NCBI GenBank assembly: GCA_027624955.1
Contig: JAQBTG010000022.1
Location: 1-59,985, forward strand
Direction: 5' to 3'
DNA: 59,985 nucleotides
DNA from: Pseudomonadota bacterium
GTDB taxonomy: Bacteria; Pseudomonadota; Alphaproteobacteria; UBA828
In this document: in pieces, positions 21,345 through 28,575 of the stretch
Numbering within the stretch: the stretch's first letter is position 1
Layout of the letters: every line of letters begins with the position of its first letter
Made by a program: the position numbers and the translations under genes
Notes under the pieces: model-generated
The model's database searches: none
The model's input: the letters and a program-made list of their open reading frames with translations, nothing else
What the model was told of the DNA's origin: nothing

Positions 21345-22150
21345 GGGCATTGTCACGTTAACAGGAAGGACGTGTAGGGGCATCTGCGATAGCCTGTCGA
21401 GATGGATAACATCTCGTTTGCTCGCCATCGATTTCCACCGGATATTATTATCCACGCGGTTTGGCTCTATGCCCGGTTTACTTTGAGTTATCGAGATGTA
21501 GAGGATCTGCTTGCGGAGCGGGGTCTTGATATTTCCTACGAGAGCGTGCGGCGCTGGTTTCTCAAATTCGGCGCGCCGATCGCAAAGAATTTGCGCAGCA
21601 TGCGGCCGGCACCGAGTGATTTCTGGCATCTCGATGAAATGGTCATCGTCATTCGAGGGCGGCGTCACTGGTTGTGGCGAGCGGTCGACAATGAAGGCGA
21701 AGTCCTCGATTTTCTCGTCCAATCCCGGCGGAACGCGAAGGCGGCGTTGAAATTGATGCGCAGACTGCTGAAGAAACAGGGAGTGGCGCCGACCCGGATT
21801 ACAACCGATAAGCTCAGATCCTACCATGTCGCCATTCGAACCCTCGGCCTGACGGCTGAGCACATCGATAACAAGCGGGCGAATAATCGTGCTGAAAACT
21901 CGCATCAGCCAGTGCGACGACGGGAACGCAAACAGCAGAAGTTCAAATCACCAGGCTCTGCCCAACGGTTTCTGAACATCCAATCTGCCGTCTACAACAG
22001 CTTTTATGTCCAGCGTCATTTACTCAGTAGGTCCACATTCAAGCGGTTGCGAACCGACGCATTCGGCGTGTGGGAAAATGCGTGCGTGGCGGCTTGAAAA
22101 ACAGCTGGCACGGTTCCTTGCGTGTCCTGCCTGTTAACGTGACAATGCCC
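21345..22150 (+). mobile_element. IS6-family insertion sequence, 806 bp, intact
   Basis: The element is bounded by 27-base imperfect inverted repeats at 21345-21371 and 22124-22150, which both begin GGGCATTGTCACGTTAACAG and differ at one internal base. One transposase gene fills the inside. The size fits IS6 (about 790-880 bp). IS6 elements move by replicative, cointegrate-forming transposition and usually make 8-bp target duplications; the flanks CGAGTTTT and GCAGACGT do not match, so a deletion or recombination next to the element has probably occurred. A second copy of the right end lies at 22333-22373. Confidence 0.88.
21402..22097 (+). CDS. IS6-family transposase (DDE)
   Basis: The 231-residue protein has an N-terminal helix-turn-helix (SYRDVEDLLAERGLDISYESVRRW) and the DDE catalytic core: Asp in FWHLDEMVI (about residue 78), Asp in ITTDKLRSYH (about 137) and Glu in NRAENSHQPVRRRER (about 172). 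The motif RRHWLWRAVDNEGEVLDFLV is typical of IS6/IS26. Length is normal. No frameshift or stop is present, so the element is probably active or recently so. It begins 57 bases inside the left inverted repeat. Confidence 0.95.
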   Translation: MDNISFARHRFPPDIIIHAVWLYARFTLSYRDVEDLLAERGLDISYESVRRWFLKFGAPIAKNLRSMRPAPSDFWHLDEMVIVIRGRRHWLWRAVDNEGEVLDFLVQSRRNAKAALKLMRRLLKKQGVAPTRITTDKLRSYHVAIRTLGLTAEHIDNKRANNRAENSHQPVRRRERKQQKFKSPGSAQRFLNIQSAVYNSFYVQRHLLSRSTFKRLRTDAFGVWENACVAA

Positions 22151-22373: not shown

Positions 22374-22515
22374 TCCGCTTTAAGCATAGGCTTTTGCGAA
22401 TAACCTATGGGCATGTGATCATACTTGATCCATAATTCTCGCACGACGGTTGTTGCGAGTAGTTTTGAAGAGCGTGAAGTTCAAATTTTGTCTCAATTTT
22501 TCCTGGGAGGCCATC

Positions 22516-23739
22516 ATGGCGAATAACAAGAAGATCACGAGCAAACATCTTTACTACAATCTTTCGCGCCGTAATTTCATTCAAGGTGCGGCGGCGACTG
22601 GCGCAGTGATTGTCGGTGCGCCGGCAATTCTTAAGGGTCTCACCCGGCGTGCCAAAGCGGAATCAGGCGTGGTTCGCTTTCTCATGACGGCGCCGACGAT
22701 GATTCCCGGCGATTGGAGCGCGTTCGAGAAGGATACCGGTATTCGCCTTGAAGGCGAGGTGATGAAGGACGACCCCGGTCTATTCCTGAACGAAGTGCTG
22801 GTGAATGACGCCGGTGACCGCTTTGATCTGATTTCCACCCTCTCGGGCGCCGAGCAAGAGCTTATCAACGGCGAGGCCATTATCCCGATCGAGCATGGTA
22901 ATTTGTCGAATTGGGCGGGGATGCCCGACTCGATCAAGCAGGTGCCCTATCTCACGCGCGACCTGAAACCGGAGGGTGGCACGGTGTGGGGCACGCCGCT
23001 CGCCATGAACGCCGATAGTTTCGGCTATTTCCCCGACAAGCTGAACGAGCCCTATCCGCCGGAAGCGGTGTCTTGGTCGTTGGTGTTCGAAGACGAGCGT
23101 ACCATGGGCAAGAGCGCGACCGGCACCATGTATTACTACCTGGAAGAATGCGCCATGTTCCTCAAGGGCTCCGGCAAGGTGGCGATTAACGATCCGGCAA
23201 ACATGACGCCGGCGGAGGCTAACGCCACGGCCGATTACTTGATCGAACGCAAGGAGGCCGGCCAGTTCCGCAGCTTTCACACCACCTTCGATGACCAGGT
23301 ATCGCTCATCAAAAATGGCGAAGTCCTCGCCATCCGCTGCTGGGAGCCGGCGGTGAAGGAAGCGCAAAAATCCGGTATGACCGACTTCGTCTACGCCAAT
23401 GCGATTGAGGGCTATATGAAGTGGATGCATGCCGCCTACATCCCAACGCAGGTCCAGGACAGGGGCAACTTTGAGGAAATCTACACCTTCCTGAACTGGC
23501 TGATGTCGGGCGCCTACGCGGCGGCGATCAGCCCGTTGCGTGGATATGTTTCGGGACGCCCCGACCTCGGTGCGGAATATGCCAAATCCATGGGTCTCGG
23601 CGAAGATGTCGGTATCGCAATCGCCGAAGCGCAGGACAAGTTGAAGACCAAGTTCTCGCATGAGCAAATGTGGTTCACGGCGGTTCCTGAGCATCTTCAG
23701 GACATTCAAGCTGCTACGGATCGTGTGCTGAACGCGTAG
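22516..23739 (+). CDS. ABC transporter substrate-binding protein, spermidine/putrescine-type, Tat-exported
   Basis: This 407-residue periplasmic protein has a twin-arginine signal: SRRNFIQG (about residue 16) followed by the hydrophobic AAATGAVIVGAPAIL. The mature part matches family 1 solute-binding proteins of the PotD type, with WGTPLAMNADSFGYFPDK and a C-terminal FTAVPEHLQDI segment. The start at 22516 follows GGGAGG. It is the first gene of a SBP-permease-permease-ATPase operon for polyamine-like or related organic cations; ligand specificity is not readable. The region upstream contains the IS6 end, which may affect expression. Confidence 0.88.
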   Translation: MANNKKITSKHLYYNLSRRNFIQGAAATGAVIVGAPAILKGLTRRAKAESGVVRFLMTAPTMIPGDWSAFEKDTGIRLEGEVMKDDPGLFLNEVLVNDAGDRFDLISTLSGAEQELINGEAIIPIEHGNLSNWAGMPDSIKQVPYLTRDLKPEGGTVWGTPLAMNADSFGYFPDKLNEPYPPEAVSWSLVFEDERTMGKSATGTMYYYLEECAMFLKGSGKVAINDPANMTPAEANATADYLIERKEAGQFRSFHTTFDDQVSLIKNGEVLAIRCWEPAVKEAQKSGMTDFVYANAIEGYMKWMHAAYIPTQVQDRGNFEEIYTFLNWLMSGAYAAAISPLRGYVSGRPDLGAEYAKSMGLGEDVGIAIAEAQDKLKTKFSHEQMWFTAVPEHLQDIQAATDRVLNA

Positions 23740-23806: not shown

Positions 23807-23845
23807 GCACACCGCGCCGCCTGTAATTATTGGTAGATTCTAGTG

Positions 23846-24769
23846 ATGACGATGAGGCATGCAGACAGCTCGCGCGGGCTGTGGGGGCGAGGATTGCTGC
23901 CTCGGCTGCCGGGTGGAATTTGGACGCTAAGCGGTTTTACGACATTCTGGTTTCTCGCTGTCGTATTGCCCCTCATCGGCATCGTCATATTCTCTTTTTT
24001 GCAGACCAAGGGCGTGAAGATCCAGTGGGACTGGAGCTTTACGGCGTACGAAAAGCTGTTCTTCTACGGCGGCGGAAATCTATTGGAACGGACTATCCGT
24101 ATCGCCGCCACCATGACGGCGATCGAGCTTTTACTCGCCTTCCCGTTCGCCTTCTGGCTCGCCAAAGGGGCGAAAAATCAAACCTTGAAACTGATTACCT
24201 TCACGGCGCTCACCGTGCCTTTTTTCCTCAGCCCCGTGGCGCGGGTGATTGTCTGGCGCGCGGTGATGAGCATCCACGGTTTGGTGAACACGGCTCTGCT
24301 CGACGTCGGTATCGTCAGCGAGCCCGTGGAATGGCTGATTTTCTCGGATTTCGCGGTGCATCTCGGGCTGCTCGGGCAATATTTTCCCGCCATGGTGTGG
24401 CCAATTTTTCTCTCGATATCGTTGATCGATAATGAATACCTAGAGGCGAGTAAGGATCTTGGCGGCAATCGCTGGCGCACGCTCTATCACATTATTTTAC
24501 CGCTCTCGCTGCCCGGAATCGTTGCCGGCATCGTCTTCTGCTTCGTGCCTATGCTGGGGGATACCGTGGTGCCACAGCAGATGGGCGGCGGCAATGTGCT
24601 GATGATCAGTCACAATGTCTACAACATGATCGGCGCGCGCAATTTCACCATGGCCGCGGCACTGGCGACGATTGTCCTGGCCATCATGTTGGCTTTCCAA
24701 ATGATCTTGTGGGCCGCACTCAGGCCCATGGGCGGCCTAGCCAATGTATTCGCGAGCCTTAACCGATGA
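23846..24769 (+). CDS. ABC transporter permease (PotB-type)
   Basis: The 307-residue inner-membrane protein has six or so helices and the ATPase-contact EAA loop DNEYLEASKDLGGNRWRTLYHIILPLSLPGI near residue 195-225. It forms a heterodimer with the next permease. The N-terminus contains several possible starts (GTG 23843, ATG 23846, ATG 23852); none has a strong ribosome site. Its TGA stop at 24767 overlaps an ATG that opens the first of five minicistrons leading to the next permease gene. Confidence 0.9.
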   Translation: MTMRHADSSRGLWGRGLLPRLPGGIWTLSGFTTFWFLAVVLPLIGIVIFSFLQTKGVKIQWDWSFTAYEKLFFYGGGNLLERTIRIAATMTAIELLLAFPFAFWLAKGAKNQTLKLITFTALTVPFFLSPVARVIVWRAVMSIHGLVNTALLDVGIVSEPVEWLIFSDFAVHLGLLGQYFPAMVWPIFLSISLIDNEYLEASKDLGGNRWRTLYHIILPLSLPGIVAGIVFCFVPMLGDTVVPQQMGGGNVLMISHNVYNMIGARNFTMAAALATIVLAIMLAFQMILWAALRPMGGLANVFASLNR

Positions 24770-24840
24770 CATTTAAGCGATGACATTTAAGCGATGACAT
24801 TTAAGCGATGACATTTAAGCGATGACATTTAAGCGATGAC
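24764..24840 (+). repeat. 14-bp tandem repeat (5.5 units) forming five overlapping five-codon minicistrons
   Basis: The unit CGATGACATTTAAG is repeated five times without change from 24764 to 24833, followed by a half unit CGATGAC. Every unit contains ATGA. Reading from each ATG (24766, 24780, 24794, 24808, 24822) gives Met-Thr-Phe-Lys-Arg-stop, and each stop TGA overlaps the next ATG by two bases. The last stop overlaps the real start of permease 2 at 24836. Stop of permease 1 is the first TGA in the chain. It appears that an original ATGA overlap was expanded by slippage. Confidence 0.95.
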
Positions 24841-25756: not shown

Positions 25757-26875
25757 ATGAGCGTGAGTGACATCGCGGAAGCGCCCATTCTCGAAGTGGT
25801 TGACGCCACCCATCGCTTCGGTGACGTGCTTGCCTTGGACAATGTCTCGCTGACATCGCGGCGCGGCGAGTTTTTGACTCTTTTGGGGGAGAGCGGTTCA
25901 GGCAAGACAACCCTGCTCCGGATAATCGCCGGGCTGGAGCGGCCCACGCGCGTCGGCCGTATCTCGATTGACGGCGAAGATGTGACTCACACGCCGGCCA
26001 ACAAGCGCAATTGCACCACCGTATTCCAGCACTATGCGCTGTTTCCCCATATGAGCGTCGGCCAGAATATCGAATATGGCTTGCGCCTGCGCGGCCAAGG
26101 CAAAGGCGAACGGCGCAAGAATGCGGAGCGGGCGCTTGACCTGGTGCGCCTCACGGGTCTTTACGACCGTCGCGTCCATCAACTCTCGGGCGGGCAGCGC
26201 CAACGTGTTGCACTGGCCCGGGCACTCGTCACCGAGCCGGCGATCCTGCTGCTCGACGAGCCGCTCGGCGCGTTGGATGAAAAACTCCGTGTCGATATGC
26301 AGGTCGAGTTAAAGGATCTGCATGAACGCCTTGGCATCACATTCATATACGTCACCCACAGCCAGGAAGAAGCCCTCACCATGAGCGATCGCATCATCTT
26401 GATGCAGCACGGCGAGATTGTGCAGGAGGGGCCGCCGACCGACCTCTTCGATCGCCCGTCGAATCAATTCGTCGCCGATTTTATGGGCATGGAAAATCTT
26501 CTCGAAGGAACCTTGGAAGCGGTGTCCGACGGGCGTGCCAGAGTGCGCATTGGTGAGAATTTTCTGAGCGGCATGTGGAGTGGCGGCGATGTTGTGGCGG
26601 CGGGCAGCCGAGTTTGCCTTGCCGTCCGTGCCGAGCGCGTGCGCCTTAGCAATGCCAGCGGCGGCGGCCAGAAAGACGGTGTCAACCGACTCCCGTGCCA
26701 CTCAGGTGCGACCATCTATAAAGGGAAATATATAGACCGCACGCTCGATACCGATATCGGCTCGATCAAGGCGCGCATCTGGGACCGCGATGCCGATCTC
26801 GCCGACCTCGCGTCCCTGTGGTGGCGTGAGGATGAATGTGCCGTGACCCAGATGGCGGCAGCGGCGGACGGCTGA
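25757..26875 (+). CDS. ABC transporter ATP-binding protein (PotA-type)
   Basis: The 372-residue ATPase powers the polyamine-type importer. Walker A is GESGSGKTT with Lys at about 50, the Q-loop is FQHYALFP, the signature is LSGGQRQRVALARAL, Walker B is ILLLDEPLGALD, and the switch His is in YVTHSQEEALTMSD. Residues beyond about 245 form a TOBE-like regulatory domain (ENLLEGTLEAVSDGRARVRIG). A ribosome site AGGG precedes the ATG. The gene ends eight bases before a MITE-like element, so the operon probably ends here. Confidence 0.93.
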   Translation: MSVSDIAEAPILEVVDATHRFGDVLALDNVSLTSRRGEFLTLLGESGSGKTTLLRIIAGLERPTRVGRISIDGEDVTHTPANKRNCTTVFQHYALFPHMSVGQNIEYGLRLRGQGKGERRKNAERALDLVRLTGLYDRRVHQLSGGQRQRVALARALVTEPAILLLDEPLGALDEKLRVDMQVELKDLHERLGITFIYVTHSQEEALTMSDRIILMQHGEIVQEGPPTDLFDRPSNQFVADFMGMENLLEGTLEAVSDGRARVRIGENFLSGMWSGGDVVAAGSRVCLAVRAERVRLSNASGGGQKDGVNRLPCHSGATIYKGKYIDRTLDTDIGSIKARIWDRDADLADLASLWWREDECAVTQMAAAADG

Positions 26876-27752: not shown

Positions 27753-28088
27753 GGGTGCTGCGTCAACATCTCGGCGGGTTCGGCAAAATCTTTGGCGATC
27801 AAGTCAGGTTGATCCGGCGTCTCGCCGAAGGGACGCTTGCGCTTGTAGGGCGACGGGTATTCTTGTGCCGTAAAATCAAGCTCCAAAATGTTGCGAAAAA
27901 AGCCCGCCAAAACATTCGAGTTGGCGGATGCTCGCAAAGTTTTCTGTACGCGAGGCGGAGCCCGATCAGAGATACGGGGCCGGCAGCGGGATTACTGTGA
28001 GCGGGCGAGCAAAGCGGTGAGCTCGTCCAGGGGCCGTGTCAGGCGAAATCGGCTTGAGCCTGAAGGCAGCGTTTCGTACGGTCCCGCG
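27753..28088. other. Region with a possible gene fragment on the minus strand
   Basis: No complete gene is seen in these 336 bases. On the minus strand, 27749-27937 reads a protein-like tail (FFRNILELDFTAQEYPSPY and on to AEMLTQHP) that ends just next to the DM13 gene and lacks an N-terminal part. It could be the 3' end of a gene broken by the nearby IS6 remnant. I do not recognise its family. Confidence 0.3.
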
Positions 28089-28575
28089 ATGAAAAATCAC
28101 TTCCGATATTTCAAGACATGGCCCGAAATTGCCCGCAAAGCTGTGATGATGTATGTCCGGTATCCGCTTTCGCTGAGGCAGGTCGAATATTTGCTCCACG
28201 AACGCGGTATCTATATCAGCTATGCAATGGTTCGCGCCTAGTGGTACCGGTTCGGTCCGAGGTTTGCGGCCGAGATCCGCAAGCGGCGCATTTATGATCG
28301 ATCATATTCATCTTGGCGATGGCATCTCGGCGAGATTTTCGTGCATATCAATGGCGAATTGGGTTACCTCTGGCGCGGAGAAATCACACCAGCCGTTTCG
28401 GCGACGGGAGCGTATGATGGCGAATATCGGGAATGTGAAATCTCACCAAAAATTCGTTTCGATCCTGGATTCGATCCACAACTACTTTAACCAGGAATGC
28501 CATCTTCACAGCCGCCAAATCTTTAAACCCAATCGCTCGCTCGCTGTTGCCGAATGGCGTGAAATTTCTGCTTGA
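28089..28575 (+). pseudogene. Decayed IS6-family transposase
   Basis: The frame starts MKNHFRYFKTWPEIARKAV and continues with the IS6 helix-turn-helix, then meets a TAG at 28239 where relatives have Trp. After the stop, WYRFGPRFAAEIRKRR and HLGEIFVHINGELGYLWR continue in frame, and then the sequence jumps to the C-terminal block EKSHQPFRRRERMMANIGN through LAEWREIS in another frame. Roughly 85 residues with the second Asp are lost. It is a different lineage from the intact IS6 at 21345. Both nonsense and deletion mean it is dead. Confidence 0.88.

Follow-up and report, generated by a model that had tools for sequence, protein, structure and literature searches.

A chain of five overlapping 14-nt minicistrons between two ABC permease genes, and recurrent ATGA chains in Alphaproteobacteria

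The permease junction and its operon

The window analyzed here, i.e., the whole stretch of 59,985 nt (contig JAQBTG010000022.1 of the assembly GCA_027624955.1, GTDB lineage UBA828), carries an ABC transporter operon with the gene order substrate-binding protein, permease 1, permease 2, ATPase. The two permease genes are joined by a tandem array. The features at this location are as follows.

22450..23739 (+), YdcS/PotF-like substrate-binding protein with TAT signal, part of this operon
23852..24769 (+), permease 1, PotB-like ABC permease (PotB model, 3.6e-41; PF00528)
24759..24840 (+), the complete array, read in register as TTAACCGATGAC followed by five times AT+TTAAGCGATGAC
24766..24835 (+), five 14-nt units ATGACATTTAAGCG, read from the sequence as five MTFKR minicistrons; unique in the genome
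24836..25714 (+), permease 2, PotC-like ABC permease, its ATG being in the sixth ATGA; no Shine-Dalgarno upstream
25757..26875 (+), PotA-like ABC ATPase, also part of this operon, with its own Shine-Dalgarno (anti-SD energy -7.8)

Judging by its best model, the operon appears to be of the spermidine/putrescine type, with scores below the curated cut-offs, and no substrate is assigned. A GTG at 23843 is an alternative possible start for permease 1. Just upstream of the operon there is an IS6/IS240-type transposase ORF (21402-22097, +; PF13610, 6.6e-35). Downstream are a small protein that contains a DM13 electron-transfer domain (PF10517; 27294-27752, +) and two short ORFs (27888-28575) that by eye resemble fragments of a similar transposase, with no Pfam match.

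The five units are exact copies and each reads ATG ACA TTT AAG CGA TGA, a closed minicistron coding for M-T-F-K-R-stop, with the stop of every minicistron overlapping the following start as ATGA. There are thus six ATGA sites at 14-nt spacing. The first holds the TGA of permease 1 (24767-24769), whose end is CGA-TGA, and the sixth provides the start codon of permease 2 (ATG at 24836). As 14 is 2 mod 3, each ATG of the array is in frame with the next TGA. Tandem Repeats Finder (TRF) gave the array a score of 157 (period 14, 5.9 copies, 98% matches), versus 51 for the runner-up in the window, and a genome-wide search found it only once. The first-pass annotation had described five 14-bp Met-Thr-Phe-Lys-Arg-stop repeats, joined by ATGA from the stop of permease 1 to the start of permease 2. 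This is confirmed in the sequence, and the limits that it gave (24764-24840) are correct within a few bases. However, its argument that changes in copy number spare both genes because 14 is not a multiple of three does not hold, since both genes lie outside the array and could not be frame-shifted by a copy change at any period. About one length in three among random duplications of an ATGA junction would give this frame closure, so that the one-off origin of such a chain needs no selection.

Origin of the array

The closest homologues (G001/L005, with 96% identity in permease 2, and G005/L006, with 88%) have a plain ATGA overlap of the permeases and zero units (...CTCAACCGATGA; e.g., AGCCTCAACCGATGACGG), and the permeases of more distant homologous operons either overlap plainly or are separated by a short gap. 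Since both nearest operons have the plain overlap, the array is a recent gain in this lineage and not a conserved device. In the comparison of geometry and repeat number among homologous operons that the first-pass annotation had put forward as a check, the nearest ones lack the units, and their permeases are simply ATGA-coupled. The same comparison bears out an origin at an ATGA-coupled junction, with the relatives carrying the ancestral plain overlap. The unit copies TTAANCGATGAC of the junction, and the array, read in register, is a tandem duplication of a 12-nt junction segment plus a 2-nt filler, with one later change. Its expansion is young, since no copy differs from another, even though the permease genes on either side have 11-12% nucleotide differences from those of the 96% relative. 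Permease 2 still looks functional, with no sign of decay, given that 85 of the 100 nucleotide differences from the same relative are synonymous.

Initiation signals at the junction

By anti-SD energy, no Shine-Dalgarno was detected ahead of permease 2, either in the window or in the relatives, the value at this start being -1.9, while random 20-mers had a mean of -2.9. We also considered that every unit might carry a Shine-Dalgarno of its own, and none was found in the window. Hairpins, terminators, promoters and known RNA families were looked for as well, with nothing notable. Lacking a Shine-Dalgarno, permease 2 is likely to be entered by reinitiation, and the permease pair has the arrangement of coupled pairs, with stop and start overlapping on one strand and in one operon. 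Termination-reinitiation requires an overlap or a very short gap, and in Escherichia coli a gap of 38 nt lowers it by 80-100%; it is under debate whether ribosomes scan after termination or depend on an overlap (PMC10666635). Because reinitiation drops sharply over gaps and there is no Shine-Dalgarno, an insertion of 70 nt without starts should uncouple permease 2, and the size of the effect of a 38-nt gap makes a chain of overlaps a plausible way across. The proposal that ribosomes pass along the repeats by termination-reinitiation, already made in the first-pass annotation, is thus in keeping with the start-stop geometry and with the missing Shine-Dalgarno, and ribosomes may use the chain in this way.

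ATGA chains across the class

We scanned nearly the same sample of genomes of the class (347-385) for four ATGAs at a fixed spacing, with periods of 11, 13, 14, 16 and 17, and used the reversed pattern as a control, its counts being tallied from the result tables. Period 14 was matched in 26/385 genomes versus 10/385 for the control. The corresponding figures were 8/347 versus 4/347 (period 11), 11/385 versus 10/385 (period 13), 11/372 versus 4/372 (period 16) and 8/372 versus 1/372 (period 17). An array was considered to be at a gene start when its last ATGA opened an ORF of at least 80 codons with Pfam support. This applied to 23 of the 44 period-14 arrays versus 3 of the 40 at the other four periods (p=6e-6), and Pfam-verified genes were found on both sides in 10/44 and 0/40, respectively (p=9e-4), in a set that is not fully independent, as some genomes give several arrays and two clpS arrays are homologous, and in which L053 was counted as ClpS via its 99% identity to L051. 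The architecture is real and recurrent, not a lone oddity.

Examples of period-14 arrays lie at the junctions yejB-yejE and narH-narJ, between an APH-family (ThrB-like) gene and rnhA, an SdhE-family gene and mfd, a PLP-dependent enzyme and an octopine-dehydrogenase-like gene, RsbW-like and SpoIIE-like genes, and two ABC ATPases. Others are located at the starts of clpS, purL, hisB, birA, speB-like and UbiD-family genes. Units resemble the sequence beside their junction (5.6/10 positions alike upstream and 4.9/10 downstream), which fits local duplication. Among the 23 gene-start arrays, three (L065, L257 and L265) have units with an early in-frame stop. Arrays of other periods on real gene starts are rare, namely L204 at a thymidylate kinase (period 13), L234 at a PEP-utilising enzyme (period 16) and L319 at a LysR gene (period 11), and can serve as natural controls.

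Several explanations for this pattern were discarded. A plain mod-3 rule does not account for the excess of period 14, since periods 11 and 17 share the frame property, yet are rare at gene starts. A conserved peptide was rejected as well, the peptides encoded by the units being unrelated between loci. Phages do not appear to be the source, as arrays of this kind are found in viral contigs at all three of the periods 13, 14 and 17, many of them being heptamers, with no clear preference for period 14. Heptamer arrays (ATGAAGG, ATGAATT) that also give period-14 ATGA chains were seen at the viral loci L083, L092, L153, L104 and others. A common background of single 14-nt units was sought in the contigs of G298, G288 and G300, with none beyond the loci already found. 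A TRF survey of these contigs had period 14 concentrated at gene starts, a result of little weight because most of these loci had led to the choice of the contigs. One period-13 array (L200) has long ORFs on both sides, but these have no Pfam support and look like spurious frames in GC-rich DNA. One genome, G288 (L293-L301, L309-L311), stands out for its many intergenic tandem repeats of period 11-14, among them ATGA arrays of period 13 at the starts of genes, and G193, of the same genus, gave several matches in the ATGA scans.

Copy number between species

Copy-number loci beyond the founding genomes were found via the gene and not via the pattern. The clearest series is yejB-yejE, where all seven species of one genus (7/7) carry units, namely five in G298 and G402, four in G403, three in G404, two in G375 and one in G205 and G086. 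Every one of them is 14 nt long and begins with ATGA, and the diverged single unit of G086, ATGAAGGTGCTTAC, leads into a GTGA start. At narH-narJ, six species of this genus have three (G298), two (G205 and G375), one (G402) or no units (G403 and G404), the units being diverged in sequence. The numbers for clpS are 3-4 in G298, 3 in G205, 1 in G375 and 0 in G086. The octopine-dehydrogenase-like locus has 3, 1 and 0 units within its genus, one of them of 12 nt, birA has 3 units versus 0 or other lengths in the compared genomes, and the permease junction has 5 versus 0 in its relatives. The first-pass annotation had supposed that repeat number can change by slippage; changes in copy number are seen directly between species at the sister loci yejB-yejE and narH-narJ.

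Proposed mechanism and alternatives

The reading that we favor, and regard as moderately probable, is that of local ATGA duplication giving a relay of minicistrons that carries the coupling, with slippage changing the copy number and tolerance keeping the chain in place. The ATGA stop-start overlap would have been locally tandem-duplicated, and with a unit length of 2 mod 3 each copy would become a complete overlapping minicistron. A ribosome ending permease 1 would reinitiate at the overlapping ATG, translate MTFKR, terminate at the following ATGA and repeat this cycle until it reaches permease 2, the relay carrying the coupling over 70 nt that would otherwise break it. Each reinitiation step probably loses some ribosomes and, if reinitiation is incomplete, output should fall with each added unit. 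Slippage would alter the number of units, and the chain would persist through tolerance rather than regulation, the insertion being absorbed without uncoupling the genes. We infer ribosome passage, the loss per step and tolerance as the cause of persistence. The geometry kept at yejB-yejE and narH-narJ despite their diverged units argues for the relay; the preference for period 14 over periods 11 and 17, which share its frame property, the lack of a clear 14-nt preference in viral contigs, the early stops in 3/23 arrays and the absence of units in the nearest relatives argue against it.

The units of the permease junction, missing in close relatives and young by the identity of the five copies, would also be expected from a passive slippage scar, an ordinary minisatellite in which the minicistrons have no effect and permease 2 is started independently, from its own ATG or from a nearby GTG or ATG. 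Permease 2 does have early in-frame alternative starts (GTG at codon 3 and ATG at codon 15), and some genomes, such as G288, are full of 11-14-nt intergenic repeats. We nevertheless consider this explanation rather unlikely, as there is no Shine-Dalgarno for independent initiation of permease 2, the period-14 excess is strong exactly at gene starts, and the geometry is preserved at yejBE and narHJ while the unit sequence diverges. An assembly artifact seems extremely improbable. The genome is a draft of 84 contigs, probably metagenome-assembled, and tandem repeats can be mis-sized, but the approximately 82 nt fit an ordinary read length, and the same architecture appears in independent genomes, among them seven species of one genus, and on very long contigs (G302 and G398).

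The differences between species in copy number (1-5 at yejBE, 0-3 at narHJ, and 0 to 3-4 at clpS) are what a true rheostat would predict, i.e., chain copy number, by slippage or selection, setting the ratio of downstream to upstream product, as the first-pass annotation had suggested for the two permeases. However, half-transporter pairs normally need near-equal amounts of both proteins, and the affected genes (clpS, purL, mfd, hisB, birA and narJ) have no common theme, and we regard the rheostat as improbable. A broader and speculative version, to which we give slightly more credit while still thinking it improbable, is that the class repeatedly evolves copy-variable 14-nt chains whose length would determine the number of reinitiating ribosomes arriving at the next gene, a slippage-mutable rheostat with some physical reason for the 14-nt step.

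Under the favored relay of tolerated minicistrons, the chains illustrate how a junction within an operon could take up insertions while its genes stay coupled. Naturally occurring chains that offer 0 to 5 reinitiation steps at one gene pair are ready material for measuring the loss per step, and the 14-nt bias, if it holds, would point to a constraint on the geometry of the ribosome or on the maintenance of such repeats.

Relation to known systems

No description of short stop-start chains was found in the literature searched, where subscription journals were mostly outside coverage. The statement of the first-pass annotation that this form is not known to have been described stands to that extent, but has to be qualified by the mycobacterial MIRUs, the closest known case, which are repeat units whose ORF couples to the next gene with -4 spacing (PMC12548453, citing Supply et al. 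1997). According to the same review, MIRUs are likewise located at start codons, with an ORF overlapping its neighbors by 4 nt (here ATGA at every step), and are presumed to be tolerated since they preserve the coupling. MIRU copy number varies between isolates (PMC2734929); for the chains, the variation seen here is between species. In contrast, MIRU units are 40-100 bp, share their sequence among many loci and appear mobile (PMC12548453), whereas the units described here are 14 nt long, differ by locus, derive from the local junction and code for a five-residue peptide. The permease-junction array is present once in its genome, and the units at other loci are unrelated to its unit in sequence.

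Pairs of genes overlapping by ATGA or TGATG (Huber 2019, PMC6728339; 2023, PMC10666635) have the same -4 overlap and represent the ancestral state of the permease junction, but consist of a single overlap between two full genes, with no chain of minicistrons. The axe-txe minigene (PMC8708949) is also a tiny ORF just upstream that acts in cis on the next gene, in a frame- and distance-dependent way, although it is a single two-codon minigene, unrepeated and with no stop-start chain. The TAACTGA heptamers of Beggiatoaceae (PMC4679880) and the Mtb-fpg1 repeats (PMC2734929) are, like the chains, short copy-variable tandem repeats at gene starts. However, TAACTGA has no start codon, and for these repeats the authors propose factor binding or mRNA-level effects and not translated units.
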